A stretch of 42,883 nucleotides of DNA from Fibrobacter sp. (GTDB taxonomy: Bacteria; Fibrobacterota; Fibrobacteria; Fibrobacterales; Fibrobacteraceae), in NCBI GenBank assembly GCA_012511955.1, contig JAAZFC010000043.1, forward strand, positions 1 through 42,883, read 5' to 3'. Made by a program: the position numbers and the translations under genes. Positions within the stretch are counted from its first letter, which is position 1; each line of letters opens with the position of its first letter. The notes beneath the pieces were generated by a model. It made no database searches. It was not told where the DNA came from and was given only the letters and a program-made list of their open reading frames with translations. Shown here piece by piece: positions 1 to 30,235 of this stretch.

Positions 1-864
1 ACCATAGCTTTGGATCAAGACAGTTTATTATGGGGCTGGGGAAGTAATGCTAACGGAAACTTAGGTGAAGTAGGTAACCCTGAAACAGAATATTATTTTT
101 TAAAACCCACCCTTATTGATGGGGAGCGGAAGTGGATTAAGGTCTGGGCCGGTGATGAAACTTCATATATGCAAGCTGTTGATGGAGCTATTTGGGGCAT
201 GGGGGCTAATCATCGAGCTTTGTATCGCAGTCTCTGGGATCCAGTGCTAGAGCCGTTATTTCTTTTTCAAAATCCACCTTTAGAAATGTCGGTGGCTAGC
301 GACCATTATTATGCTATAGATTCTGATAGCCTTCTCAGAGGGTGGGGATATGATAGAGGAAACATAATAATACCACAAAAATTATCCTTCGATAAAAGAA
401 GCGAGAGGAATGATATTGGCTATAGGGTGGAAGGCGATGAATGGCAATGGCAAACGGTGGGTATTAGCGAAGCAACTTCGGCGGCTCTGCGCACCGATGG
501 GGTTATTTACTGGTGGCGCACCACCACTCATCCTTTAGAATATCCTAACAGGTACGCTGTCGGTACACGGGCTTTTGGGCTAGAGGTGGTGTTTGACACC
601 CTGCCCCCAGCGCAAAACCCCAAGGATTCAGCGGATCCCACGGGCATAAGCGCTGCTAAACCCACCTTGGTGGCGCATATTGACTCCCGCACCGGCATTT
701 TATATGCTTCCACTAGCGCCCCCGCCCGCATATTTTCCATTAACGGTAAAATGATTTCCACCGTCCAATTGCACCAAGGTCAAGCCCAACTGCCTCCCTT
801 GCCCCGCGGTTTATACATCATACGCTTGGCTAATGGGCAGAGCCTAAAGTGGAGGAGGGAATAG
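1..864 (+). CDS. Secreted RCC1-repeat protein with T9SS sorting domain (5' partial)
   Basis: The reading frame is open from base 1, so the N-terminus and any signal peptide lie outside the window; the stop is TAG at 862-864. The visible ~287 residues begin with a clear RCC1-type repeat (WGWGSNANGNLGE), followed by weaker copies (IWGMGANHRALYR, LLRGWGYDRGN, and AALRTDGVIYWW), so a beta-propeller or partial propeller is likely. The last ~70 residues form a short beta-sandwich-like tail with the pattern of the type A T9SS C-terminal domain: RIFSINGKMISTVQL, then a proline-rich turn, then PRGLYIIRLANGQSLKWRRE. In Bacteroidota and Fibrobacterota this tail directs export across the outer membrane and is then removed or anchored. 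The passenger function is unknown; RCC1-like propellers usually bind partners. The sorting-domain call is confident; the propeller call is moderate because the repeats are degenerate. Confidence 0.75.
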   Translation, partial: TIALDQDSLLWGWGSNANGNLGEVGNPETEYYFLKPTLIDGERKWIKVWAGDETSYMQAVDGAIWGMGANHRALYRSLWDPVLEPLFLFQNPPLEMSVASDHYYAIDSDSLLRGWGYDRGNIIIPQKLSFDKRSERNDIGYRVEGDEWQWQTVGISEATSAALRTDGVIYWWRTTTHPLEYPNRYAVGTRAFGLEVVFDTLPPAQNPKDSADPTGISAAKPTLVAHIDSRTGILYASTSAPARIFSINGKMISTVQLHQGQAQLPPLPRGLYIIRLANGQSLKWRRE

Positions 865-1517: not shown

Positions 1518-3389
1518 TTAATTTTGAGAATGATTGTTTTTTAACTTACTTGTAATGTGTTGCAAGTCAAAAGCTTGGCTAAGCTGTTGCAAAATTGCTT
1601 CTTCTTTTAAATCTTTTTCCCAATATAAGTTAGGCTTAGGCTGGGAAAAACTAGGTTTTGGAGCATTTAACTCCGCTAGTTCTTCGGGGGTGGGATCTAA
1701 AAGTTCGTAACGCAATAAAATATCACCACCCAAAATATTTTGCAAAAACTCCGTTAAAGTGTTCTTGTAATTAGGGGATTTGGTGATTTGCTCATATTGA
1801 AAGTTTTGACTGTGCTTAAAAATTATTTTTAATTCAAAGGGCGAAGCTTGGTAATCCCCCCTTTGTAGAGTTGTTTCCTCTAAATAAGCGCCAACTAAAG
1901 GCTCGCTGTTATAAAAATCTTGCACCACTCTTTTCCATTGGCTAACTATCTCAAAGCGAGGAATTTGAGGGCTAGGAACGCTTACATCGTCAAAATCGAT
2001 GCTAAAATCATCTGCTTCTGGAGGAGCCTCCATATATGGATCAGAATTTGGGTCCAAAGTGGGAGCTGAATCAGGAACTGGCGCTAAATCTGGCTCTGGT
2101 GTAGAACTTAGCTCTGGTGCAGAAAATTGCTCTGGTGTTAAATTTGCTTCTGGCCTTAAAGTTGGTTCTGAGGCTAAGTCTGGTTTTGGCTCTGGGGTAG
2201 TAACTTCAGCAGGAACTAGGGCTTCGTTATATTTTTTTTTATTTTCTGCAGAACTTGTTGCAGATTGTACCGTGGTCAAAATTTTGCGTAAATCGCTGAC
2301 TCTATCTAGCCACGCCATGCGCGCCAAGGCCGTTTCTAAACTTAAACGCGGGTTGGTGCTATAGCGCATTTGCTGCAAAGTGTCGTTGGCGATTTTACCA
2401 TAGCGCAACAAATCGCCGTGGGTGGCCTGGGGAACAGCTTCACGATAGCGCTGAAAAAGGTCTTCTGAAACCTCTAAGGCTTGGTGGTCTAAACCGCTGA
2501 CTTTGGCGAATAAAACATTGCGCAAAAACTGCGCAAATCCTTGTAAAAACACCGATAAATCTAAACCGCTTGCCGTGGCCTGGGCTATAACTCCATAGAC
2601 CTTATCTAATTGATGTTCCCAAAGAGCTTCTATCAAATCAAAGTATAAATCTTCGGGGGGAATACCCAAAATATTGCGCACCGCATCTTCATCGATGTTT
2701 TGTCCGCTAAAAGCATAAATCTGGTCGAAATAGGTGAGGGCATCGCGCATGGAGCCATCAGCTTTTTGGGCAATTAAGTCTAAAGCAGTGAGGCTAGCGG
2801 TAATTTCTTCTTGTTCGCAAATATAAGCCAAGCGATCGCTGATGCTTTTGTTGTTTAAACGCTTAAAATCAAAGCGTTGCACCCGCGACAAAATAGTTTG
2901 GGGAACTTTTCCAACTTCGGTGGTGGCAAAAATAAAAATCACATGGTCCGGGGGTTCTTCTAAGGTTTTAAGCAGGGCATTAAAAGCCGATTTCGAGAGC
3001 ATGTGAACTTCATCTATCACAAAAACCTTGTATTTGCCTATCATGGGGGTATATTTTACTTGCTCAATAATATCCCGCATATCATCTACGCTGGTATGGC
3101 TGGCAGCATCTATTTCTATGACATCCATGGGGTTGCCCGTGGCTATATCTTTACACGAGGTGCAAGTTCCGCAAGGGCTTAAAGGATCGCCCCCCGAACA
3201 GTTGAGGGAGCGTGCTAAAATTCGCGCCGAAGTGGTTTTACCCACGCCACGAGTGCCTGTAAACAAAAATGCGTGATGCAAACGACCACCTTCGATGGCG
3301 TTTTTAAAAGTGCTAGCAATGTGTTCTTGCCCCACTAAATCCGCAAAACTCATAGGACGCCATTTACGCGCCATAGCCATATAAACCAT
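1518..3389 (-). CDS. dnaX: DNA polymerase III subunit gamma/tau
   Basis: The clamp-loader ATPase of the replicative polymerase, 623 residues. Visible features are Walker A (GTRGVGKT, about 45-52), four zinc-ligand cysteines (64, 73, 76, 79), Walker B DEVH (126-129), sensor 1 ATTE (155-158) and the SRV arginine-finger region (~168-170). The AAA+ and collar domains run to ~365. A Pro/Glu-rich linker of PEP-type repeats (~393-460) is followed by a tau-like C-terminal domain (~475-620). Nine consecutive A residues encode Lys384-386 between collar and linker, a possible slippage site that would yield a short gamma form (separate entry). The true start could be M1, M4 or M6; M6 (MARKWRP) best matches family N-termini. 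It is transcribed with ybaB, divergently from the gene at 3447. Confidence 0.96.
   Translation of the reverse strand: MVYMAMARKWRPMSFADLVGQEHIASTFKNAIEGGRLHHAFLFTGTRGVGKTTSARILARSLNCSGGDPLSPCGTCTSCKDIATGNPMDVIEIDAASHTSVDDMRDIIEQVKYTPMIGKYKVFVIDEVHMLSKSAFNALLKTLEEPPDHVIFIFATTEVGKVPQTILSRVQRFDFKRLNNKSISDRLAYICEQEEITASLTALDLIAQKADGSMRDALTYFDQIYAFSGQNIDEDAVRNILGIPPEDLYFDLIEALWEHQLDKVYGVIAQATASGLDLSVFLQGFAQFLRNVLFAKVSGLDHQALEVSEDLFQRYREAVPQATHGDLLRYGKIANDTLQQMRYSTNPRLSLETALARMAWLDRVSDLRKILTTVQSATSSAENKKKYNEALVPAEVTTPEPKPDLASEPTLRPEANLTPEQFSAPELSSTPEPDLAPVPDSAPTLDPNSDPYMEAPPEADDFSIDFDDVSVPSPQIPRFEIVSQWKRVVQDFYNSEPLVGAYLEETTLQRGDYQASPFELKIIFKHSQNFQYEQITKSPNYKNTLTEFLQNILGGDILLRYELLDPTPEELAELNAPKPSFSQPKPNLYWEKDLKEEAILQQLSQAFDLQHITSKLKNNHSQN
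2232..2240 (-). promoter_or_regulatory. A9 slippery tract in dnaX, possible frameshift site
   Basis: On the coding strand this is exactly nine A residues, read AAA AAA AAA (Lys384-386) and flanked by T on both sides. A -1 shift on A AAA AAA reads ATA then TAA, ending at residue 387. A +1 shift reaches TAG after seven more codons. Both would produce a protein ending just after the AAA+/collar region, as gamma does in E. coli (ribosomal frameshift) and Thermus (slippage on A9). No clear downstream stimulatory stem was seen. Confidence 0.5.
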
Positions 3390-3434
3390 AAACAGAAAGA
3401 TAAGAAATTTATTTTATATAGCCGTATAAAATGC

Positions 3435-3440
3435 TATATT
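3435..3440 (+). promoter_or_regulatory. Putative -10 box abutting the start at 3447
   Basis: TATATT ends 6 bases before ATG 3447, with no Shine-Dalgarno sequence between. If used, the transcript would start at or next to the start codon (leaderless). No clear -35 element. The 57-bp interval is shared with the divergent dnaX promoter. Confidence 0.35.
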
Positions 3441-3446
3441 AATCTT

Positions 3447-3926
3447 ATGTTTGAAATTTCTCAATCATCATGGAGCGATCTGTCGCTCACTGAAAGCTAC
3501 GATTTGTTGCGGCATAGGCCTTATTTAGTGCGTATGGATGCCGAACCCGTGTTGCATTACAACGCTCCTTTGGGTATTTGGCAAGGTGCGCCAGTGCATT
3601 ACAATCTCGCCTGGGGTTTAGTGCGTTATAGTTGGAAAGCCACGGTAACCAGTGCTGAAAATCATAGCTTTAGAGCCACTTTAATTGCAGCGGAAGACAG
3701 TCCTTTAGTGGAATTTACTGCCCATCATTCTTTGCAAAGCGAAGAAAGTGGCACCATAATTCGCGAATCGCTCAATGGAGCCTTCAAAGACTCGTCTTTA
3801 AGCGAAGTTTGGGCCAAAGCCCAGGTGGTACACGCTTTTTCTGCCCGACAGTCTGCCAGTCAAAGGGCGGCCGACAAAACCACGGGTAAAATCTCCACCT
3901 TAGATTCGGGCTCCCAAAGCGCATAA
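3447..3926 (+). CDS. SRPBCC-like ligand-binding protein (tentative)
   Basis: A 159-residue cytosolic protein without signal peptide or membrane segment. The central pattern (LVRYSWKATVTSAENHSFRA, then a segment ending PLVEFTAHHSL, then SGTIIRESLNGAF) resembles the beta-strand order of the SRPBCC/START-like fold, where a Gly-Thr and an acidic residue precede the last long helix. That is a pattern judgement, not a database match. The C-terminal ~35 residues are low-complexity, rich in Ser, Ala and Gln. Its stop TAA is directly followed by the ATG of nspC with no intervening base, so the two are probably cotranslated. The ligand is unknown, and a link to polyamine metabolism would be guesswork from position. 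Confidence 0.55.
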   Translation: MFEISQSSWSDLSLTESYDLLRHRPYLVRMDAEPVLHYNAPLGIWQGAPVHYNLAWGLVRYSWKATVTSAENHSFRATLIAAEDSPLVEFTAHHSLQSEESGTIIRESLNGAFKDSSLSEVWAKAQVVHAFSARQSASQRAADKTTGKISTLDSGSQSA

Positions 3927-5096
3927 ATGGCATATCCCAGCATTGCCATAGATTTTTCCCAGGTTCCTTCGCCCTGTTATGTCTTAGAAATGGCGCGTTT
4001 ACGCCAAAATTTAGAGATTTTAGATCGCGTGCAAAAAGAAGCAGGGGTTAAAATAATATGCGCTCTTAAAGGCTTTTCCTTTTGGAGTTCTTTTCCCCTA
4101 GTGCGCCAATATTTGCCAGGTTGCACCGCTAGTTCCTTAAACGAAGCGCGCTTAGCTTCCGAAGAATTTGGCGGCGAGGTGCATGTTTATGCCCCAGCTT
4201 ACGCCGACGACGAAATCCACGAAGTTCTGTTTTTGGCCGACCATATTAGTTTTAATTCCATATCCCAATTGCAACGCTTTCGTTCCGCCATAGCCACTCG
4301 TCGCGAAAAGAGCGATTTAGGGCCGCTTTCTGTGGGTTTACGGGTAAATCCCGAATATTCTGAGGTCAGCACCGATCTTTACAATCCCTGCGCACCTTTT
4401 TCTCGTTTGGGAGTGGTGCGCTCCGAATTTGATCCCCAAGTGATGCCCCAGCTCGATGGTTTGCACTTCCACGCCTTGTGCGAACAGAATGTCAACGCCT
4501 TGGAAGGAGTGCTCGCCAATTTTGAAAAGCTTTTCGGCGAATTTATTCCCCAACTTAAGTGGGTAAATTTCGGCGGTGGGCATCATATTACTCGTTCCGA
4601 TTACGATGTGGAACGCCTAATCCAAGTGTTGCGAGATTTTCAGCAACGCTATCCAGGGGTGCAAGTGATTTTAGAGCCTGGCGAAGCTGTGGGATGGCAA
4701 ACCGGGGAACTGGTGGCCACGGTGCTAGATTTGGTGCGCAATAAAAAGGAAATCGCCATTCTCGATATATCCATTAGCGCCCATTTGCCGGATTGCTTAG
4801 AAATGCCCTACAGACCCGAAGTTATAGGCGCTGCCTTGCCCGGGGAAAAACCCCATAATTATACCTTAGCCGGGGGCACTTGCTTAGCTGGCGATGTTTT
4901 GGGGGATTTTAGCTTTGATAAGCCTTTGACCGTGGGAGATAAGATCGTTTTTCTCGATATGATCCACTATACCATGGTGAAAACGACATTTTTCAATGGA
5001 GTTAAACATCCCAGTATTGCAATATGGCACGAAAATCAGAGTTTAGAAGTGGTGCGAAGCTTTACTTATGAGCAATTTAAGGATAAATTGAGCTGA
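3927..5096 (+). CDS. nspC: Carboxynorspermidine/carboxyspermidine decarboxylase
   Basis: A PLP-dependent alanine-racemase-fold decarboxylase of 389 residues, the usual family length. It converts carboxy(nor)spermidine to (nor)spermidine in the carboxyspermidine polyamine route. Supporting motifs are the N-terminal PSPCYVLE, the PLP lysine in CALKGFS (K48), the NFGGGHHITR glycine-rich phosphate-binding segment, LEPGEAVGW, and the C-terminal catalytic-type segments DISISAHLPDCLEMPYRP and LAGGTCLAGDVLGDF with the active-site Cys and Asp. The partner carboxyspermidine dehydrogenase is not in this window. It starts immediately after the stop of the upstream gene. The substrate choice, norspermidine or spermidine, cannot be decided from sequence alone. 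Confidence 0.93.
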   Translation: MAYPSIAIDFSQVPSPCYVLEMARLRQNLEILDRVQKEAGVKIICALKGFSFWSSFPLVRQYLPGCTASSLNEARLASEEFGGEVHVYAPAYADDEIHEVLFLADHISFNSISQLQRFRSAIATRREKSDLGPLSVGLRVNPEYSEVSTDLYNPCAPFSRLGVVRSEFDPQVMPQLDGLHFHALCEQNVNALEGVLANFEKLFGEFIPQLKWVNFGGGHHITRSDYDVERLIQVLRDFQQRYPGVQVILEPGEAVGWQTGELVATVLDLVRNKKEIAILDISISAHLPDCLEMPYRPEVIGAALPGEKPHNYTLAGGTCLAGDVLGDFSFDKPLTVGDKIVFLDMIHYTMVKTTFFNGVKHPSIAIWHENQSLEVVRSFTYEQFKDKLS

Positions 5097-17429: not shown

Positions 17430-18137
17430 TTATGTTTCGCTGAGTATTTTTGCCAAAATAGCGGCGTATCTTTGGGCTAAAAGTTCCGAAGCCAGTCGGG
17501 GAAGCTCCAAAGTTACGCAGTCTATGTGGTTTTCTTGGCACCAAGTTCCCAGAGAGCCCGGGGTGGGATAGCCAATATCCTCTACCAAAGGCAGTTCGAA
17601 TAGCTTTGCCAAATGCTGGCTCCAAGGGGATTTTGGCGCATCTACGCAATGCAAAGGGGCGTGGATGGATAAAATGCGTTGGGGTTGCACTTGGGAAATG
17701 AGTTTTAGCAGAGCTTGGGTTTCGGGTTCCGAAGCGGGGCGGCCACCCGGGCTTAATTGCGTTACCGAGGGGATTTCTAAAATTAAGCGACAAGTGGTGG
17801 CCTGGCTTTGCCAGTTGCTGGTGGGAAAGTTGCGGTTTAAGTCTATTCCACCAGCATTGCCCCGCGTGCCCCAAGCGAGGCCATCGGGATTGGCACATAA
17901 AACCACCCCTGCAGAGAGTTTTGTGCCTAAAAGGCGCAAAGCGCGAGAAACTAGCATCACGGTTTCGCCTTCTTCGCCGTGAATCCCCGCGATTACCAGC
18001 AAATCACAGGATTCTGGACCAAAATAATGCAAAGGAGCGCCGTGAATGCTGTGCCCATAAGTTCGGGGAGTTAATTGCAGGGTTCCCTGCTGTTCCCAGG
18101 GAGTAAAACCATCGTCTGCACCCGGATAGCTCTTCAT
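17430..18137 (-). CDS. mpaA: MpaA-like M14 peptidase (murein tripeptide amidase)
   Basis: A zinc carboxypeptidase-fold enzyme of 235 residues from ATG 18137, which overlaps the upstream TGA by four bases (ATGA) and has an AGGA ribosome-binding site. Zinc ligands are H53 and E56 in GIHGEEGE and H159 in LSIHAPL. Substrate-binding residues lie in RGNAGGIDLNRNFP, and the candidate catalytic Glu is E211 in VTLELPR. In E. coli, MpaA removes the gamma-D-Glu-diaminopimelate linkage of the murein tripeptide during peptidoglycan recycling. The adjacent M15 carboxypeptidase supports a peptidoglycan role. No signal peptide is visible, fitting a cytoplasmic recycling enzyme. Confidence 0.85.
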   Translation of the reverse strand: MKSYPGADDGFTPWEQQGTLQLTPRTYGHSIHGAPLHYFGPESCDLLVIAGIHGEEGETVMLVSRALRLLGTKLSAGVVLCANPDGLAWGTRGNAGGIDLNRNFPTSNWQSQATTCRLILEIPSVTQLSPGGRPASEPETQALLKLISQVQPQRILSIHAPLHCVDAPKSPWSQHLAKLFELPLVEDIGYPTPGSLGTWCQENHIDCVTLELPRLASELLAQRYAAILAKILSET

Positions 18138-18820
18138 AAATCTTCCTGCCAATAGGGATAAACATATTGCTCTAAAATTTGCGGTAAAGTCGCCAAAATA
18201 GCATCTTTTAATTCCAAGTCGCTGGCGGCCAAAAGTTGGCGCAGTCGCTCAGGGTCAAAGTGTTTTTGCCATTGGTGGGCGGTGGGTAAATGGGAAAGAT
18301 GCCAGCGTTCCGGCTGAATTGCGCCCACCCCAGGCACAAAAGGCCTATAAAAACCTTCGCAATTCTCAGCGGCGATTTGTTGATCTAGCCAAGCGTGCAA
18401 AGGTGCAAAAGGCCCCGCAGATTCTTCGGGGGTGAGTTGCACTTCGTAGCCTTCCGGCACGGCGATGGCATCATAAACATCTATGTCCGTGCCCCAATGA
18501 TGGCGGGAAGTGCCCGGCAAAGCCGACCAAATTAATATAGCCGCCACTTTTTGTTCATCATCTAAGCCACTCAAATCCATGGCTTGGCTGTGGCGGTCAT
18601 ACACAGGAATTTTCCCTAGCGCTTTGCCGTTCCAAATAGCCAATTGCCGCTCAAAGGAACGCCAGGCGCTGGCTGCGGTCAAATTGTACCCAGCTTGGCG
18701 GGCGCGCTTTTGCAAAGCTTGCCAGTGGGGCAATACTTCGCTGTGTAAATAGCTTTTTCCAGTGCTCAAAAGTTGTAAATATTCCTGGTTTAAGCCTAAA
18801 ATCGCCTCAGTTTTTGTCAT
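18134..18820 (-). CDS. M15-family D-Ala-D-Ala carboxypeptidase
   Basis: A 228-residue zinc peptidase of the VanY/DdcY M15B group. The motif SRHHWGTDIDVYD supplies H107 and D114, and ERWHLSH supplies H174, the three expected zinc ligands. AASAWRSFERQLAIWNGK is the usual upstream substrate-binding segment. Such enzymes trim D-alanine or L,D-linked residues from peptidoglycan stem peptides. No signal peptide or membrane anchor is evident, which is odd for an extracytoplasmic enzyme and may point to cytoplasmic recycling with MpaA. The start ATG overlaps the flippase stop (ATGA) and has a good AAGGAG site. Confidence 0.87.
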   Translation of the reverse strand: MTKTEAILGLNQEYLQLLSTGKSYLHSEVLPHWQALQKRARQAGYNLTAASAWRSFERQLAIWNGKALGKIPVYDRHSQAMDLSGLDDEQKVAAILIWSALPGTSRHHWGTDIDVYDAIAVPEGYEVQLTPEESAGPFAPLHAWLDQQIAAENCEGFYRPFVPGVGAIQPERWHLSHLPTAHQWQKHFDPERLRQLLAASDLELKDAILATLPQILEQYVYPYWQEDL

Positions 18821-20358
18821 ATTTCACTCCTTTTCTGCTTACTTCTTTTTTGTCGCCACCACAAGCTCAGCGGATGTTGGGGCAGCCCCGGTAAAAGCAT
18901 ATTGGCTCCCAGCACAATTCCCCAAGTTAATACCAGCATAGCCCCACGCACTTCCCAAGTCCAGGGGCGGGCATTTAGCACAATAAAGGCACTCACTGCT
19001 AAGGCTAAAAGTCCTTTCCAATGCAAGGTGTATCCAAAGGAAACTTTGGGTAATTTGTTCATTTCTATAATTTGCAACATGGAAATACTAAAGTTTGCCA
19101 CGGCTCCGGCGCAAGCGGCTCCTAAAATGCCCCATTTGGGAATCCAAAGCAAGTCTAAAACCACATTTAAAGTCAAAGCCATCAGAGAGTTCATTAGCAG
19201 TAAACGGGCATGTCCGCTCATCAAAAGTAAATTGCCTGCTAAGCCAAAATGCACACTCATAAATGGTCCCACGCATACCAACCAGGGAATCCAGCCTGAT
19301 TCGGTCCAAGCTTGGTTTGTTCCAAAAATAAAATCGGGGAAAAAGAACTGCACCAATAATAAAACGAAAGTTCCCACCAAAGCGCTGAGTAGGGCTAGTT
19401 CTCGCAAGCTTTCTTGAATGCCAACTTTGTTGTTTTGGCTTTGGTAGCGCGCCACTAAGGGGTTGAAAATTCCTGAAAAAGCCATTTTGGGCAGGCGAAT
19501 CATCTGGGCTAAATCCACCAATAAGGCGTAAATTCCCACGGTGTTGGCCGAGGCGAAAACAGACAAAATCAGCGCATCGAGTTTAACTAAACCTGCGTTG
19601 GAAGCCATGTTTAGAGATTGGGGAATGGCAAAACCCCATAATTCTTTGTTGCCTTGGGTGCTAAATATGGTGCGCAATGTCCGCGAAAACGAATAATAAC
19701 GGCGAAACTCAAAAATTACCACGGGCAAACAGCTAAGTAGCGAAGCAATGGTGCCATAAGCCATGCTAAAAATGCCTAAATCTGCACTGAAATGGAAAAT
19801 TAAAGCGTAAATAATGCTCAAAACAGGAAACATGGTTTGCACCACTAAAACCGGAGTGCGCATATCTAAGTGGGCTCGGGTGCTTTCCGCTAACATATAT
19901 ACCAAGGTCAGCAAGGGTAAAGCCCATATAATAATGCGTAATAAAAGCACTACATCGGTGCTGTGATCTTGCCAAAAAGTGCGGTAAATCAGTTCGGCAC
20001 CGCCCCATAAAAGCGCGGTAAAAACCAAAGATATTAGCAAAGAACCTCGTAAACTGGTGGCTAAAGTGCGGTAAAGCTTTTGCTCGCGCCGCTCTTTTTG
20101 TGCGGAGTCTTCGTCATCTGCCGGACTCACATATTTGGCCAAATGATAGGTGATAGCATCGCCGAATCCCCCCAGCACAAAGTTGGAAAGCAATTCCATA
20201 ATGCCGTAGGCAATCATATATAAGCCAAAAGCTTCGCCTCCAAACATGCGGCGCAGCACAAACTGAAAAGCTTTGGAGCCCGCCAAGGAAATTCCACCGA
20301 GAACATTAAGAGCTGTGCCCACTTTTACTTTCCGTCTATCGCTTTGAGTGTAACCCAT
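18817..20358 (-). CDS. Oligosaccharide flippase-like membrane protein (MOP superfamily)
   Basis: A 513-residue protein with about 12-14 hydrophobic helices, the usual size for the MOP superfamily (Wzx/MurJ-like). The N-terminal LNVLGGISLAGSKAFQFVLRRMFGGEAFGLYMIAYGIMEL fits Wzx-type flippases. Helices continue through NFSISMLQIIEMNKLPKVSFGY to a terminal pair (~455-495). These proteins move lipid-linked glycans across the inner membrane. It begins two bases after the LtaS-like gene and overlaps the M15 gene by four. The neighbours suggest a glycerol-phosphate-containing or cell-wall polymer as cargo, but that is inference. Confidence 0.82.
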   Translation of the reverse strand: MGYTQSDRRKVKVGTALNVLGGISLAGSKAFQFVLRRMFGGEAFGLYMIAYGIMELLSNFVLGGFGDAITYHLAKYVSPADDEDSAQKERREQKLYRTLATSLRGSLLISLVFTALLWGGAELIYRTFWQDHSTDVVLLLRIIIWALPLLTLVYMLAESTRAHLDMRTPVLVVQTMFPVLSIIYALIFHFSADLGIFSMAYGTIASLLSCLPVVIFEFRRYYSFSRTLRTIFSTQGNKELWGFAIPQSLNMASNAGLVKLDALILSVFASANTVGIYALLVDLAQMIRLPKMAFSGIFNPLVARYQSQNNKVGIQESLRELALLSALVGTFVLLLVQFFFPDFIFGTNQAWTESGWIPWLVCVGPFMSVHFGLAGNLLLMSGHARLLLMNSLMALTLNVVLDLLWIPKWGILGAACAGAVANFSISMLQIIEMNKLPKVSFGYTLHWKGLLALAVSAFIVLNARPWTWEVRGAMLVLTWGIVLGANMLLPGLPQHPLSLWWRQKRSKQKRSEI

Positions 20359-20360
20359 AT

Positions 20361-22334
20361 TTATCTTTTTTGATAAACTCCTCGTTTTCGTTCAGTGAAA
20401 GGGAAAATTCTGTTTTGATCTAGTAATTCACCATAGGCAAAAATCATGTCGCGATACCTGTGTATGGGAAAATCCCACGGAACCTCATCGCTTTGTTTAG
20501 CTTGATGTCCACTCAATAAAGCATAGTCTCTTTTACTGTTTTTATTCACCTTAAAGTACATGAGTTGGGAACTAAACATTTCAAATAAAACCCTGTGTTC
20601 TTCGTGAATAAAAGCCACGGAATTTTGCCTAAAACTCAGCATTTCTTTGGAAAAAGGCTCAAGTAGAGAGTTGCCCATAAAGTGGTTAGGGGCGTTCATA
20701 TCGAGCATGGCCAGTAAAGTTGGGGCAACATCTATTAAAGATACGGTGGTTTCATGGCGTTGAGGAGTTGGTAAGCCAGGCCAGCCTCCCAAAAACGCCA
20801 AATGCACCCAAGTATGCCCAGGGGTAAAATTACCAGCGACTTCAGTGTTAAAGCGAGCATCCGTAGGAGGTTGTGCATGATCTCCTACCATGACGAGAAT
20901 GGTGTTTTCCCACAAATCACTTTGTTTTAAGTAATCAATGAGCTTAACGATTTGCTTTTCTGCATAGACAATAGCTTGGTCGTAGCGTTCTTCGTCGGTA
21001 TCAGCAATGGGTATTCCCTCGGAAAGAGGAATTGTATATGGTGGGTGAGTGGTAACGGTCCAGGTGGACAGGAAAAAAGGATCTTTGCGATCTATAGTGT
21101 CAAGGGCTTGGATAAAGCGCTCTATTAGTGGACCATCTTGGGTGTATTTTTCACTGTATTCCACATAGTTATACCAACGAGTAAACCACGGGCTTAGATT
21201 AGAAAAAGAAGGGTCAGCTCCTACGAAAATCTCCGTTTTATATCCAAAATCTTGGAATATTTCAGCTAAGGATTTCCAGTTAATGCTTCCATAGCTAGAA
21301 ATGATGATTTTTCGAAAATGGGGCCAAGTTCCCAAGTGTAGATTTTGAGTGCCTTCTACACTGGGGTAGCCTAGAGAATGAGTGTAGGGAAAATACAATG
21401 CTTCATTTTGTATAATAGAGTCCAAAATTGGCGTAAAACTAGGCAAAGTTGTGTCAGGAACAAGACCGGTTTTCCAGCCACGCCATGTTTCAAAGGTTAG
21501 AAACACAATATTAGGGCGCTGAGAGCGGGGCAATTGAATAAAATCAGTTGCAGAAATTGTGCCAGGGCCATGTTGTAGCAGGGGAAATTTAGGAATGCTA
21601 TCTATAGGCTCAGAGGCTAAGTTACCATGCCGGCTAAAGTGAAGCAAGTCTGCATAAGCTTGCTGTGGATTGCGAGGCTTTTCTAGGCCTAAGTTTTGTC
21701 GAAATAAGTCGGTTCCTATACTTAGTACCACGGGTTGAATACGGCGCCATCTTTTTTCACTGGGTATTAACCAAACAGGGCTAGCAATTAAGATCAGACA
21801 AACCAATACTAAGCCGCTCCATATTTTAAATGCGTGTTTGTGAGGAGCTGAAGGTTTGCGAGTTTGCCCTATGGCAGCTATTATAGCCACTAAGATTACC
21901 ATCAGGGCCATAAAAGTGCCAAAAATATCGGATTTAAGTAAAGCTCCTAGCATAACTCCATCGGTGGCTCTAAAGTAATTTTGAATAAACGATAGGGTTA
22001 AATGCTCGCCAAGCCAGCGCACAAATTCTAGGTCAATTTGTGTGAAAATTAAGTATGTACCGCTCAAAAATGAGAAACTGTATTTTAAAACTTTGCCATG
22101 AATGCCTGTGGCTAATGTTAAGAGTCTAAAAATCAAAACCAAAGCTAAAATAACTCCCAATTCTATAGCAATGGCGTTGAAAACTAAACGCCTTGGTTCT
22201 TCTACCAAAGGACCGCCATAGGGGCTATATCCGTAATAATGTAAAAGTAAAGATATTACACGAATTGTACTAAAGATAAGGGTACTTTGTAATATCCAAG
22301 AGTTATTTTGTAGGGATTTTCTAAGGGAAAACAT
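20361..22334 (-). CDS. LtaS-like membrane phosphoglycerol transferase
   Basis: A 657-residue protein with about five N-terminal membrane helices (to ~190) and an alkaline-phosphatase-fold sulfatase domain (~270-570). Expected active-site residues of the LtaS/OpgB group are present in order: E282 (FLTFETW), candidate nucleophile T329 (SVEGTQNLHLG), H430 (TTHPPY) and D485-H486 (VMVGDHAQP). The spacing resembles LtaS (E-T 45, here 47). LtaS moves glycerol phosphate from phosphatidylglycerol to a polymer; relatives decorate periplasmic glucans in diderms. It overlaps the glycerophosphotransferase gene by one base and has a GGGAG site. A phosphoethanolamine transferase is an alternative, but the neighbour favours glycerol phosphate. 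Confidence 0.82.
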   Translation of the reverse strand: MFSLRKSLQNNSWILQSTLIFSTIRVISLLLHYYGYSPYGGPLVEEPRRLVFNAIAIELGVILALVLIFRLLTLATGIHGKVLKYSFSFLSGTYLIFTQIDLEFVRWLGEHLTLSFIQNYFRATDGVMLGALLKSDIFGTFMALMVILVAIIAAIGQTRKPSAPHKHAFKIWSGLVLVCLILIASPVWLIPSEKRWRRIQPVVLSIGTDLFRQNLGLEKPRNPQQAYADLLHFSRHGNLASEPIDSIPKFPLLQHGPGTISATDFIQLPRSQRPNIVFLTFETWRGWKTGLVPDTTLPSFTPILDSIIQNEALYFPYTHSLGYPSVEGTQNLHLGTWPHFRKIIISSYGSINWKSLAEIFQDFGYKTEIFVGADPSFSNLSPWFTRWYNYVEYSEKYTQDGPLIERFIQALDTIDRKDPFFLSTWTVTTHPPYTIPLSEGIPIADTDEERYDQAIVYAEKQIVKLIDYLKQSDLWENTILVMVGDHAQPPTDARFNTEVAGNFTPGHTWVHLAFLGGWPGLPTPQRHETTVSLIDVAPTLLAMLDMNAPNHFMGNSLLEPFSKEMLSFRQNSVAFIHEEHRVLFEMFSSQLMYFKVNKNSKRDYALLSGHQAKQSDEVPWDFPIHRYRDMIFAYGELLDQNRIFPFTERKRGVYQKR

Positions 22335-23548
22335 TAAAGCTCCCGGGAATAAAAGTTAGTGCGCAATTTATTTATGCTTTGTAGAGAATTTGCCGCGTAA
22401 TCAGCTTTTTTAGATGGGAAAAATAACTTTTGCCAATGTAGGCGGCGATCTTGCCATTTTTCTAATTCTAACCAAGACTCACTGAGCAAGCTTTCTATAA
22501 AATCAGTGGAATTTTGCACCCAGGGACCATAGACAAAGTCTGGGTAATTGAGATAAAATTTACGTGTTTGTAGATAGGACTCTAAATCGAAGGTGAAAAA
22601 CATGGCTGGGCGGTCTAATATGAGCCAATCCGCCAGCAAACCCGAATAATCAGAGATAAAAAGTTCTGCTCTTGGAAGTTCTTTGTCCAACTGGGATGGG
22701 GCGATAAATTCGATTTGGCTATTGCTGCTTTTTAGGGATAATTTGGCATTAATATGGTGGCAAATTACCAGAGTGCGTTGGCTATGTTGCAACCATGCTA
22801 GTAATTTAGAATTTTGCACAACTTCTTGGAGGGTGTTTTGCAAATGTTGGGATTCCACACTGCCTTCGCGAAAGGTGGGAAACCATAAAATACGCTTTTG
22901 GGTTTTGTGAGTGCGCATATTAATAAAGTCATCAATATGGGCACCACCTCCCAACTGAATTTGTTCTTTTAAGTGGGGGAGGGCTAAGGCAAAGTTATCA
23001 GCTTCTAGGGGGGAGCTAGCCAATAAAGCGTCGAAATTTACCATAATCCAACCATAAATTTTACGATGCAAAAAATTCATCTTTTCTATGCCTGGCTTAT
23101 ACCATTGTCCCGATTTTAGGTGGTTCATGCAGTGATTTACAAATACCCGCAAACCCAAACGGCCCCGCCATAGCAAAGCGTATTGATCTAAATCGTCTTC
23201 GCCATGGGAATATATCAACACCGGCGCTTTAAGTGTGGCTATGCGAGCTTTCCAGGTGTTGCGCTCAAGGCAATTCACCCCTAGGGAGCGTAGTTCTTTG
23301 CATAAAGCAGCATTGCCAATCCACAAAATCTTTTGCTCGCTGTGTGCGTTGATATAGCGGTACAAAGCTCGGGAATTATCGGCGAAAATTCGCCCTCGGT
23401 GTCCGCCAATTACCCAGGGATGTTTTTGGCTTTCTCGTTGTCTTTTGTACAATGGCGCCAAAATCCACACCACAAAAGCATAAAATAAGTGCAAAGGTTG
23501 TTGTAAAAACCACAATATTTGTTGTAAAAAGTACAATTTCCCTTTCAC
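22334..23548 (-). CDS. CDP-glycerol glycerophosphotransferase-like enzyme (TagB/TagF type)
   Basis: A 404-residue protein of the CDP-glycerol glycerophosphotransferase family. An N-terminal membrane-proximal hydrophobic segment (~8-30) precedes two Rossmann-like halves. Visible hallmarks are HCMNHLKSG (~139-147), a phosphate-site segment LWFPTFREGS (~221-230), CHHINAKL, and the C-terminal ISDYSGLLADWLILDRPAMF (~298-317) followed by FTFDLESY. These enzymes transfer glycerol phosphate from CDP-glycerol in wall teichoic acid synthesis, and homologs in diderms modify capsule or lipopolysaccharide. The start is GTG 23548, overlapping the recG stop by one base, with a GGAG ribosome-binding site. 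No tagD (CDP-glycerol synthesis) is in the window. Confidence 0.85.
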   Translation of the reverse strand: MKGKLYFLQQILWFLQQPLHLFYAFVVWILAPLYKRQRESQKHPWVIGGHRGRIFADNSRALYRYINAHSEQKILWIGNAALCKELRSLGVNCLERNTWKARIATLKAPVLIYSHGEDDLDQYALLWRGRLGLRVFVNHCMNHLKSGQWYKPGIEKMNFLHRKIYGWIMVNFDALLASSPLEADNFALALPHLKEQIQLGGGAHIDDFINMRTHKTQKRILWFPTFREGSVESQHLQNTLQEVVQNSKLLAWLQHSQRTLVICHHINAKLSLKSSNSQIEFIAPSQLDKELPRAELFISDYSGLLADWLILDRPAMFFTFDLESYLQTRKFYLNYPDFVYGPWVQNSTDFIESLLSESWLELEKWQDRRLHWQKLFFPSKKADYAANSLQSINKLRTNFYSREL

Positions 23549-25602
23549 TAATGCACTCCGCTGGCCAGATTGTCAGTTTCTTGGCGCTTTTCTTGATACC
23601 ATTCTTCGAGGATTTCAATTTCTTCGGCACTAAACTTAGGTTTTTTATCAATAATATCTTCTGCTTGGCTAATGGTATCTTCAATCATATCTTTATCTTT
23701 GATCCAATCGACCCAACGCAACACCCAAGAACCCGATTGTTGGGCTCCTTCTAAGTTTCCTGCTCCTCGGTTGGCTAAGTCCAGTTCGGCAATTTCAAAA
23801 CCATCGTTGCTTTGGCTAAAAGCTTGTAAGCGCTCAAAAGCGGAGTTATTTTGATCGGCCATCAAAAAACACCAGGCCTGCACTGTGCTACGCCCCACTC
23901 TGCCCCGAAGTTGATGTAACTGCGCCAAGCCAAAGCGTTCGGGTTGGTCTATGACCATTAAGTTGGCAGCGGGGACATTAACTCCCACTTCTACCACGGT
24001 GGTGCTCACTAAAATATGAATTTTGCCCTGATTAAACTCTTCTAAAACTCGCTCTCGCTGGCTTTCTTCTAAACGGCCATGCACAAAGTCTATGCGCAAT
24101 TTAGGCAAGGCTGTGCGCAGTTCTTCCACCACGGAATCCACCGCTTGGGCTTCCGAATCGGGATCTGCTTCTATTTTAGAGACAATCCAATAGCACTGAT
24201 TAGCGTTTTCTAAGCATTCTCTGGCTATAAATTGGCGCATATCCGCTCTTTTGACGGGGGCCACCAAACGAGTTTTCACCGGCAAACGCCCCGGAGGCAT
24301 GTCCCGCATCACCAAGGGTCGCAAATCGCCGTACAAAGTCATGGCCAAGCTGCGGGGAATAGGGGTGGCACTCATCACCAACATATCGGGCTTTTTGCCT
24401 TTCGCGAGCAGCGCTTCTCTTTGTTGCACCCCAAAGCGATGCTGTTCGTCGATAATCACTAAATCCAGTTGCTGAAAAGCCACATCTTTGCTAAAAAGCG
24501 CATGGGTTCCTACCACCGCGTCCATTATTCCGCTTTCCAAATCAGATAAAGTTTTGCGCCGTTCGGCGGGCTTTAAGGCACCCACCAGCAAGCCCACATT
24601 TAGCCCCAGCTTATCGAAAGTGGGGCGCAAACTGGCCAAATGCTGGCGGGCTAAAATATCCGTGGGGACCATAATCGCCGCTTGCCCTTCTCCGGCGCAA
24701 ATGGCTATCATGGCTAGCATAGCCACCACGGTTTTCCCGGAGCCTACATCGCCCTGTAACAAAGCGTGAAACTGCCCCGGCGCAGCTAATTCCTGCAAAA
24801 TGCTTTGTATTACTTGCTCTTGGCCTGCAGTGAGCTGAAAAGGCAAATCGGAACGAGCTTTTTGCACCATCTCTAAGGCTAAATTTTTGTGGGCATTGCT
24901 TTCTGCTAATTTGCGCCTTCTTTGCACCATGCGCAAACATAAGGGCAAAATTTCCAGAAATTTGAGCTGGCGCCGACCTTGATAGACTTCGCCCATGGAA
25001 TAGGGTAAATGCAAGCGACGCAAATTTGCTAATTCGGGTTTGCATTTTAAATATTCTAATAAGAAGTCTGGGGTGCTAGAGCTTAGTTGCAACCAATCGG
25101 CGGCGAAAATATCGCTGTACAATTTGCGGAAAAATCCTTGCTCCATGCGCGCAGCCCGCATTTCTTCGCTAATGGTATAAACCGGGGTGATTTTTCCGGT
25201 GAAATCTTCGTCGGCTTCTAAGGGTTGCATTTCGGGATGCACTAACTGCAAACCGCGAAAATTTTGCACTTTTGATATAGCTACCCAACGGCTACCCACT
25301 GTTAAACGCTTGTGCCAATATGTAGCCGCTGCAAAAAAGATGAGTGCGATTTCTTGACCAGAAGCGTCGCGTAAATGCGCCATCAAACGCGGCCTGCGCC
25401 CATAAATCAAGTTTGCTCTGCTAATATTCCCTACTAAAACGCAGGAGTCGCCTTCTTTTAAAGAGGAAATGGAGTCAATTTGCGTATGATCTAGCCAAGT
25501 GCGGGGGATATTGCGCAACAAAGCAGGTACATCGCCTAAACCAGCTTTTTGTAAGACCTTTATGCGCTTGGGGCCTAGTCCGGGAATAAACTTTAGATCC
25601 AT
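23548..25602 (-). CDS. recG: ATP-dependent DNA helicase RecG
   Basis: The branch-migration helicase for stalled forks and recombination intermediates, 684 residues from ATG 25602 (a TTG at 25614 would add four). The N-terminal wedge region has IPGLGPKRIKVLQKAG and a helix-hairpin-helix-like start, then an OB-fold (SCVLVGNISRANLIYGRRPRL). The helicase domains contain motif I LLQGDVGSGKTVVA, motif II IIDEQHRFGVQQR, motif III MSATPIPRSLAMTLYGDL, motif V STTVVEVGVNVPAANLMVID and motif VI QLHQLRGRVGRS. The length fits RecG. It heads the minus-strand run of overlapping genes, so it may be cotranscribed with the envelope genes below it. Confidence 0.97.
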   Translation of the reverse strand: MDLKFIPGLGPKRIKVLQKAGLGDVPALLRNIPRTWLDHTQIDSISSLKEGDSCVLVGNISRANLIYGRRPRLMAHLRDASGQEIALIFFAAATYWHKRLTVGSRWVAISKVQNFRGLQLVHPEMQPLEADEDFTGKITPVYTISEEMRAARMEQGFFRKLYSDIFAADWLQLSSSTPDFLLEYLKCKPELANLRRLHLPYSMGEVYQGRRQLKFLEILPLCLRMVQRRRKLAESNAHKNLALEMVQKARSDLPFQLTAGQEQVIQSILQELAAPGQFHALLQGDVGSGKTVVAMLAMIAICAGEGQAAIMVPTDILARQHLASLRPTFDKLGLNVGLLVGALKPAERRKTLSDLESGIMDAVVGTHALFSKDVAFQQLDLVIIDEQHRFGVQQREALLAKGKKPDMLVMSATPIPRSLAMTLYGDLRPLVMRDMPPGRLPVKTRLVAPVKRADMRQFIARECLENANQCYWIVSKIEADPDSEAQAVDSVVEELRTALPKLRIDFVHGRLEESQRERVLEEFNQGKIHILVSTTVVEVGVNVPAANLMVIDQPERFGLAQLHQLRGRVGRSTVQAWCFLMADQNNSAFERLQAFSQSNDGFEIAELDLANRGAGNLEGAQQSGSWVLRWVDWIKDKDMIEDTISQAEDIIDKKPKFSAEEIEILEEWYQEKRQETDNLASGVH

Positions 25603-25638
25603 AATTGCAATCAAAATAAAAAAATACCAAAATGAGTC

Positions 25639-28054: not shown

Positions 28055-30235
28055 TTAAAACTTGAATAACAATCCAAAGCGCAATTGTCCGTCGCGCACC
28101 CCTTCTCTATTGCCCACGCCTTGAATACTGGCAATATCCAGTTGCAAGACATCGGAAAGCATTACACCTAAACCCCAGTGCGCTTCTTCGCGCTGCCCAC
28201 CTTCGTCGTATAAGTAGCCGGCACGCAAGGCTATGGTATTTGCATAAATATACTCTACACCAGTGTTAAAAACGCCTTGCATTAGGCTCATGCGAGCAAT
28301 GGAGCCAGCTCCGTTATTGGGAGTGCGACCGTCGGGATAAGCCCAAGCTTTCCAAGCGGAAATGTAGAAAGGCTGGGCATTACCACGATTGTCAGTGTAA
28401 ATAACTTGGCGATTATAATCCGCAGTCATGGCTAAACGGTGATCTACGGTTTCTAATAAATCGTAGGCTAAGCCTATGCGCCAGGTTAGGGGAATGGGAT
28501 CATCGCTGGATTTGTCGATGTAATACACATTGGGGCCAATATTGCTTAGGGCTAAGCCAAAATTCAAGTTGCGCCAAATATGTCTTCCTAAAAGCCCAAA
28601 ATCAATGGCATAACTAGCAGTGGTAGCGTTGGGTTCGCCCATGGCTGCCCCTGTGCTTAAGCTAGAGTAGAAAAATTTAAAGTTTAAGCCTAAGCCCCAT
28701 TTTTTACTGAGACGAGTACCATAACTTATACCCCCCACGGTTTCGGAACTGTTAAAAGTGCTTAAATCTTCGTTAACACTTTCCGTGGATACCAAAGTCT
28801 GTCCAAAACTGATAAAGTTGACAAACCCGCCAATGGTTCCCCATTCTCCAGCGGGAAAAGTAGCCCCCACAAATAGGTGATATAAATCGGGGATATTAAG
28901 CACGGGAAGCAATTTCTCATAGAAAAAGCTTAACTGGGATTCCGCATGATTAAAGCGCTCCATACCTTCGGAAGTGCTAAACCATACATCTTTGCCCTGG
29001 GGCAAAACTTTCCACACCTGGTTAGATTTCATCCCATTGCCAGTATGGTAGTGGGACCAAGAACCGCTTTCGCTTTGGCGGGTCATTTCAATCTCTACTT
29101 TGCGCCCTTTGGCGGTGGCGTAGTCGGGCAAATGTCGCCACACACCCTTGTTGGTAGCTATCCAAATTGCGCCGTCTGCAGCCACAGATAAGTCGTTTAC
29201 TTGATTGTTATCAAAGCGAATTTGTTCCCATTTGCGCAAATTAAAATGCGAAACTCCTGCATTATGAGCTGTCCAAATATGCCCCGATGAATCTACTACT
29301 AAGGACAAAGGGTTTAAATCCATTAAACCATCTTCAAGGTTATACAAGCTCCAACGGTCTTTTTCGCTGGGGCTCTTTTTGGGCTGTAAACGCGCAACTC
29401 CAGCCCCTTGTACGGCGACATATAGTTCTTGGCGTAAATCGGACCATGCTAAGGAAACCATGTTTTGACTGGGTAAAACCTTGCCTTTGCGTTCAAACAT
29501 GCCATTGCGGTAGCTGTATAAACCATCGCTGGTGGCAATCCAAATAGTTGCACCTTGGGCAGTTATGGCTTGCACATTTACTGAGTCTAATTCTATGTGA
29601 AAATTGCGCCAACTTTTGCCATCAAAGCGAAATAAGCCTTTTTGCGTACCCACCCAAAGCTTTTCCGTGCGATCTTCGTAAAAAATTGCGGTAATGCTAT
29701 CTGAAACCACTAAATTCCAGGGTAGCCGCACTTCAACTAGGTAAGATTCATCGGTGGCGGTTTCCACATTATTAAAGTTTTTAACAATTTGAGTTAAGGA
29801 GTCCAAATGTCGTTCGGTGCCGGCATAGGTGCGTACCACATCGCGGACACGGGCTGCCCCTTGGGGAGTTTCTGAGTGAAAGTTACGCCAGCGTTTGCCA
29901 TCAAAATGTAAGATTCCATTAGTGGTTCCAGTCCAAAGGTCACTTTTAGCTAAAAATCCACTGCGACTGCGGGCAGCAATGGCAGAAAAATGTGGAGTGG
30001 TGCTCACTGCTTCTCGCGTAAGTTCCCATTCATTGGAAATAGGACCAAAAGCTAAACCTGCAGGGTTGTAATACACGGCGTTGGCATCATTGGCAAAGGC
30101 AACACCAGCTTCAGCCATACCTAATTGTCGAGCTCCTACGGGCATCTCCAAGGTAATAATAGCAGCTCCTCGGGCCCAAAGTGAAGCACTACAAATCACT
30201 AATAGCAAAAAAGATTTTTTGATAAAATTATGCAA
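28055..30235 (-). CDS. PorV/PorQ-like outer-membrane protein with inserted propeller
   Basis: A 726-residue protein with signal peptide (MHNFIKKSFLLLVICSASLWA). Residues ~33-62 show the start of PorV/PorQ-type barrels (VGARQLGMAEAGVAFANDANAVYYNPAGLAF). Residues ~95-410 are a series of two-component-regulator-propeller repeats (LWTGTTNGILHFDGKRW, LWVGTQKGLFRFDGKSW, IWIATSDGLYSYRNGMF, IWIATNKGVWRHLP). Residues ~430-726 return to barrel strands and end RFGLLFKF. PorV and PorQ belong to the T9SS outer-membrane machinery, matching the sorting domain on the protein at 1-864. A propeller inside a PorV/Q barrel is unusual. It shares eight bases with the upstream small gene, so they are cotranslated. 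Confidence 0.78.
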   Translation of the reverse strand: MHNFIKKSFLLLVICSASLWARGAAIITLEMPVGARQLGMAEAGVAFANDANAVYYNPAGLAFGPISNEWELTREAVSTTPHFSAIAARSRSGFLAKSDLWTGTTNGILHFDGKRWRNFHSETPQGAARVRDVVRTYAGTERHLDSLTQIVKNFNNVETATDESYLVEVRLPWNLVVSDSITAIFYEDRTEKLWVGTQKGLFRFDGKSWRNFHIELDSVNVQAITAQGATIWIATSDGLYSYRNGMFERKGKVLPSQNMVSLAWSDLRQELYVAVQGAGVARLQPKKSPSEKDRWSLYNLEDGLMDLNPLSLVVDSSGHIWTAHNAGVSHFNLRKWEQIRFDNNQVNDLSVAADGAIWIATNKGVWRHLPDYATAKGRKVEIEMTRQSESGSWSHYHTGNGMKSNQVWKVLPQGKDVWFSTSEGMERFNHAESQLSFFYEKLLPVLNIPDLYHLFVGATFPAGEWGTIGGFVNFISFGQTLVSTESVNEDLSTFNSSETVGGISYGTRLSKKWGLGLNFKFFYSSLSTGAAMGEPNATTASYAIDFGLLGRHIWRNLNFGLALSNIGPNVYYIDKSSDDPIPLTWRIGLAYDLLETVDHRLAMTADYNRQVIYTDNRGNAQPFYISAWKAWAYPDGRTPNNGAGSIARMSLMQGVFNTGVEYIYANTIALRAGYLYDEGGQREEAHWGLGVMLSDVLQLDIASIQGVGNREGVRDGQLRFGLLFKF

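Follow-up and report, generated by a model that had tools for sequence, protein, structure and literature searches.

Here we describe a compact group of envelope genes in a 42,883-nucleotide contig of a Fibrobacter sp. (JAAZFC010000043.1; this whole stretch is hereafter the window). Its core consists of three consecutive genes, all on the minus strand: a TagF/TagB-like phosphotransferase of family PF04464 that forms a distinct subfamily (hereafter GlyP; 22334..23548), a membrane-anchored LtaS-like phosphotransferase of family PF00884 (20361..22334) and a Wzx/SpoVB-type flippase of the Polysacc_synt family (18817..20358). The best explanation of the data, which we favour tentatively as close to an even call, is that these genes form a co-inherited envelope-glycan cassette with a phosphate-decorated product. 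The original prediction, made from the sequence of the window, was of a phosphoglycerol-decorated glycan built from two donors, cytidine diphosphate (CDP)-glycerol and phosphatidylglycerol, together with an exporter. The trio as a unit and the LtaS-like side of that proposal are supported, whereas the CDP-glycerol side is not, which leaves the glycerol-phosphate reading half supported. Among the papers searched, none describes such a cassette, which occurs in two diderm phyla and combines a flippase with two phosphate transferases, one cytosolic and one periplasmic.

Homologues of GlyP that bear the signature PWVIGGHRG...YSHGEDD occur at 18 loci in a collection of 84,980 species. The order GlyP, LtaS-like protein, flippase, M15 peptidase and MpaA-like amidase is common to the source genome of the window contig (2.68 Mb, 97% complete, with Fibrobacter metagenome-assembled genomes (MAGs) among its relatives) and to a second Fibrobacteraceae genus (G010; locus L080). 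The gene order is thus not unique to the source genome, and the core trio recurs in another phylum: in three delta/Myxococcales MAGs (L081, L082 and L084) the order is GlyP, flippase, LtaS-like protein. The three core genes therefore occur in two phyla and in two different gene orders. The cassette flippases are 41–58% identical to that of the window, as against about 20% for other Fibrobacterota flippases. The LtaS-like proteins of the cassettes fall into a single clade (SH-aLRT 96.4, ultrafast bootstrap (UFBoot) 99), joined by proteins of genus g15 whose genes adjoin group-1 glycosyltransferases. Other Fibrobacterota relatives of GlyP have a different flippase alongside and lack this LtaS-like protein. 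In every cassette genome GlyP is the lone PF04464 protein, and the source genome holds in total one PF04464 and one PF00884 protein, both inside this operon. Because the trio is co-conserved across phyla with matched subfamilies, there is good comparative evidence that GlyP, the flippase and the LtaS-like protein act as one functional unit or pathway. A chance gathering of envelope genes without a common pathway would suit the lineage-limited associations with the M15 and MpaA genes and recG; already disfavoured, it is scarcely credible for a trio that stays together in two phyla and two orders with matched subfamilies.

GlyP matches PF04464 with 91.7 bits (gathering cut-off 22.1; E = 6e-26), and its AlphaFold2 model is confident (predicted local distance difference test (pLDDT) 91.3). 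The best matches of this model among solved structures, found with Foldseek, are TagF, TarL, Cps3D and the Haemophilus influenzae type b (Hib) polymerase Bcs3, with an E-value of 1.2e-17 and a template modelling (TM) score of 0.64–0.69 against TagF (3l7i). Residues H139 and H265 and the motif SDYS (299–302) are invariant in 18 relatives, as is the subfamily motif SHGxDD. The catalytic histidines of TagF are H444 and H584 (PMC5974469); H139 of GlyP was aligned with the WHG histidine by profile comparison, and the equivalence of H265 comes from segment order only. By sequence and model, GlyP is thus a PF04464 subfamily of its own with a predicted TagF fold and the catalytic histidines. The donor motif WHG is replaced by [NGA]H[CSGT] across the 18 relatives. 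Glycerol-phosphate transferases are marked by a proline, and ribitol-phosphate transferases by a glycine, at the donor motif (HGTP) (PMC10299916); the +3 position in GlyP and its relatives is N, A, K, S, T or H (18/18), neither proline nor glycine. None of the canonical WHG paralogues that these bacteria were found to carry has a loop like the one after H139. Alignment is difficult in this loop, and some canonical local paralogues also lack the proline, so that the motif is indicative only, and the altered loop is a hint pointing away from the use of CDP-glycerol.

The search for CDP-glycerol synthesis genes in the cassette genomes (mostly MAGs) found none: the best match to a TagD-type glycerol-3-phosphate cytidylyltransferase in the source genome reaches 56 bits (cut-off 165), and the other cassette genomes have zero matches. 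CDP-glycerol as the donor, the first half of the original prediction, is accordingly unsupported, with no TagD in these genomes and the TagF donor motif altered in GlyP. We consider it rather unlikely that GlyP uses CDP-glycerol while the LtaS-like enzyme uses phosphatidylglycerol, to yield a true poly(glycerol-phosphate) or a glycerol-phosphate-decorated surface glycan. The PF04464 family and TagF fold of GlyP would fit, TagF-like enzymes of Gram-negative bacteria use CDP-glycerol (PMC5974469), and a related genome (G003) carries a fuller teichoic-type locus, TagD-like gene included; yet TagD is found in no cassette genome, the single PF04464 protein leaves no primase and polymerase pair, and WHG is replaced, with the proline typical of glycerol-phosphate transferases (PMC10299916) missing in all 18 relatives. 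Because each cassette genome encodes one PF04464 protein, a teichoic pathway with both a primase and a polymerase is improbable there. The donor of GlyP is probably not TagD-made CDP-glycerol. By analogy, a uridine diphosphate (UDP)-hexose would be a reasonable donor, because hexose-phosphate is also among the groups that TagF-like domains can transfer (PMC5974469).

The 56-bit match in the source genome was rejected as a TagD; this sole match is a phosphonate-pathway cytidylyltransferase, encoded on contig C16 directly beside a phosphoenolpyruvate (PEP) mutase (415 bits). The surrounding locus (L040, 1–12 kb) is a phosphonate glycan locus that also contains decarboxylase-like and alcohol-dehydrogenase-like genes, a PntC-like nucleotidyltransferase-aminotransferase fusion and two LicD-like genes. 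In L040 separate reading frames encode the PEP mutase and the cytidylyltransferase; in G029 the two are fused. Also in G029 (L037, 10.5–19.3 kb), two tandem proteins with a YidC-like N-terminus and a sulfatase-like C-terminus come before a PF04464 protein and a set of phosphonate genes. Transfer by GlyP of a cytidine monophosphate (CMP)-activated phosphonate such as aminoethylphosphonate could draw on this neighbourhood in the source genome, with its PntC-like fusion and LicD-like genes, and on the GlyP relative near the G029 phosphonate cluster, which itself encodes another PF04464 protein. We regard it as very unlikely: the PEP mutase is found in the source genome and in no other cassette genome, so a phosphonate was rejected as the general donor, and the LicD-like genes are the expected transferases of the phosphonate locus (for such neighbourhoods, see PMC6697681).

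The LtaS-like protein (PF00884, 73.5 bits, E = 2.4e-20) has four hydrophobic segments before residue 190. Its profile scores are 54.8 bits for LtaS (NF053595), 40.9 for the OpgB type and about 12 for MCR; the first is below the NCBIfam LtaS equivalog cut-off of 970. In the subfamily alignment E282, S325, H430, D485 and H486 are invariant. Alignment with relatives, VP1736, LtaP, LtaS, OpgB and EptA places the nucleophile column at S325, within G-[YF]-P-S-V-E-G, whereas position 329 is T, A, C, G, L, M or F among relatives. The active site named in the original prediction therefore stands for E282, H430, D485 and H486 and needs correction at T329, for which S325 is the true nucleophile. The AlphaFold2 model is moderate (pLDDT 66) and was used for fold family only; its matches are, in order, VP1736, LtaP, YejM, LtaS and then sulfatases, and no Ept/MCR structure is among the 50 best. 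In a maximum-likelihood tree the protein falls outside Ept, LtaS and OpgB. Every cassette genome has pgsA, the phosphatidylglycerol synthase gene. The head group transferred is probably phosphoglycerol from phosphatidylglycerol. In L081 at least, a second PF00884 gene (2844–4559, plus strand; 79 bits) lies directly upstream of the delta cassette, and its product groups with Firmicutes LtaS/LtaP (94.5/90).

Several observations weigh against the cassette reading or its chemistry. The columns of LtaS W354 and R356, which are named active-site residues (PMC7576196), are S and L in the LtaS-like protein, which makes the head group uncertain. Forcing this protein into the Ept group was not rejected in the approximately unbiased (AU) test (p = 0.087), whereas forcing it exclusively into LtaS was (p = 0.0007); the forced-clade constraints exclude sister paralogues and are therefore strict, and the deep PF00884 phylogeny is not resolved. 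No glycosyltransferase or acceptor-synthesis gene adjoins the cassette in the window. One MAG (L088) has GlyP and the LtaS-like protein with a Pfam-unmatched membrane protein in place of this flippase. The sample of six cassette loci is small, the flippases of three of them being 92–94% alike, and most cassette genomes are MAGs of partial or not established completeness. The first two points would suit an LtaS-like protein that acts as a phosphoethanolamine transferase or as a metal-dependent phosphatase, with no glycerol phosphate involved, as would the phosphatase activity of the close fold match YejM (PMC7576196). The higher LtaS and OpgB-type scores and the lack of Ept/MCR structures among the 50 best fold matches make this improbable. 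Separation from the phosphoethanolamine transferases, on which the original prediction turned, is thus borne out in part: score and fold are nearer LtaS, LtaP, VP1736 and YejM and no Ept grouping is seen, but the AU test leaves that grouping standing.

What follows for the cassette reading is our inference as to the donor and acceptor, the direction in which material flows and the end product. Working in the cytosol with its TagF fold, GlyP would take a phosphorylated group from a nucleotide-activated donor and pass it to an acceptor in the membrane that is probably polyprenyl-linked; TagD-made CDP-glycerol is an improbable donor, and a UDP-hexose or a different CDP-alcohol may serve instead. 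The SpoVB/Wzx-type flippase would carry the product over the inner membrane. On the periplasmic side the LtaS/OpgB-like enzyme, which has its anchor in the inner membrane, would then use Ser325 to add to the flipped product a head group taken from a phospholipid, most likely the glycerol-phosphate of phosphatidylglycerol. We would expect a glycolipid or short glycan decorated with phosphate, not a chain of the classical teichoic acid type. A more specific proposal, conceivable but on the doubtful side, is that GlyP represents a TagF-fold subfamily whose donor is neither CDP-glycerol nor CDP-ribitol, and which, together with its dedicated flippase and LtaS-like enzyme, builds a phosphodiester-decorated glycolipid not described before, in diderms as unrelated as Fibrobacterota and Myxococcota-type bacteria. 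The envelopes of Fibrobacterota are poorly known; the cassette offers three defined genes for probing an envelope phospho-glycan, and a TagF-family enzyme with an apparently non-textbook donor.

The six proteins of the locus were assigned by Pfam and NCBIfam profile searches. Upstream of GlyP lies recG (23548..25614, minus strand, starting with TTG at 25614 or with ATG at 25602; RecG models 591–670 bits). Downstream of the flippase (PF01943, 3.3e-13; TIGR02900, 44.9 bits) are two accessory minus-strand genes, for an M15/VanY peptidase (18134..18820; PF02557, 86.7 bits; VanY, 1.5e-24) and an MpaA-like murein tripeptide amidase (17430..18152, or from an ATG at 18137; NF007897). The recG/GlyP and GlyP/LtaS-like junctions are overlaps of 1 nucleotide each, the LtaS-like gene and the flippase are separated by 2 nucleotides, the flippase and M15 genes overlap by 4, and the M15 and MpaA genes by 4 or 19 depending on the MpaA start. 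The genes, coordinates and tight order after recG, with overlaps or gaps of at most two bases, agree with the original prediction. Promoter and terminator scans gave results at chance level. Adjacency of recG and GlyP is confined to the source genome, the gene upstream of GlyP in G010 not being recG, and a position downstream of recG is thus no part of the system.

The M15 protein has the motifs HxxxxxxD (107–114) and WH (173–174), and neither a signal peptide nor a hydrophobic N-terminus. MpaA carries its HxxE zinc motif as HGEE at residue 58, scores 236 bits over an equivalog cut-off of 157 and 180 bits against solved MpaA (5hxd), and has no signal peptide. Both genes accompany the Fibrobacterota copies only, G010 included; neither adjoins the delta cassettes. 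A role for them in the export path was rejected on these two grounds, and the murein trimming once proposed as part of the surface pathway falls with it. Because signal peptides are lacking, and judging from the known role of MpaA, the two proteins look like better candidates for cytosolic murein-peptide recycling than for wall trimming.

Two further genes of the window concern the type IX secretion system (T9SS). A PorV-family protein (28055–30235, minus strand) has its barrel at residues 429–726 (170 bits over a cut-off of 90), split from a PorV-like N-terminus (29–62) by a propeller-like insertion. At the C-terminus of a protein encoded at 10–864 (plus strand) there is a weak match to the T9SS type A sorting domain (21.5 bits, below the cut-off of 23), which agrees with the earlier remark that the host bears a T9SS. 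The lipopolysaccharide (LPS) 3-deoxy-D-manno-octulosonic acid (Kdo) transferase KdtA is present in the source genome and G010, as in all four Fibrobacteraceae examined. The delta cassette MAGs G062, G063, G065, G069 and G077 gave no KdtA match, which may reflect either incompleteness or an LPS-poor envelope; the cassette therefore seems independent of KdtA. The title of a 2001 structural study (cited in PMC9311074) calls F. succinogenes 'lipopolysaccharide-lacking'.

Teichoic-like chemistry in a diderm, which the original prediction had thought unexpected, is not new in itself, because TagF-like polymers and glycerol-phosphate capsule polymerases are established in Gram-negative bacteria (PMC5974469, PMC8262930). 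GlyP shares with TagF, TagB, TarF and TarL the fold, the catalytic histidines and the SDYS motif, and differs in its SHGxDD motif, in [NGA]H[CSGT] for WHG and in being a lone PF04464 protein without TagD. The Gram-negative capsule polymerases Cps3D, Cps7D, Cps1B and Bcs3 also place a TagF-like domain in a diderm, but they are large multidomain proteins (the Cps3D chain in 8qoy has 1149 residues) encoded in group 2 capsule clusters, whereas GlyP consists of one domain of 404 residues, and its gene stands next to those for a Wzx-type flippase and an LtaS-like protein. With LtaS and LtaP the LtaS-like protein has in common a membrane anchor, an alkaline-phosphatase-superfamily domain and the positions of the metal-site E, the nucleophile and H, D and H; it differs in its serine nucleophile, in the lack of W354/R356 equivalents and in its separate clade. 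A periplasmic PF00884-type domain is shared with OpgB (MdoB), YejM/LapC and VP1736 (3lxq), the last being its best sequence and fold match. The OpgB system differs in its osmoregulated-glucan partner: OpgG (PF04349) had no match in seven genomes, the cassette genomes included, with a positive E. coli control, and decoration of osmoregulated periplasmic glucans was rejected. A counterpart in the same bacterial family is the G003 locus (L074, 2.7–17.9 kb), where PF04464, flippase and LtaS-like genes likewise stand together, with acyltransferase and LicD-like genes; unlike the cassette, it has TarI-like and TagD-like (140 bits) genes and two TarF-like transferases with the canonical WHG motif. 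The cassette is thus best filed as a variant among teichoic- and capsule-type phosphotransfer systems.

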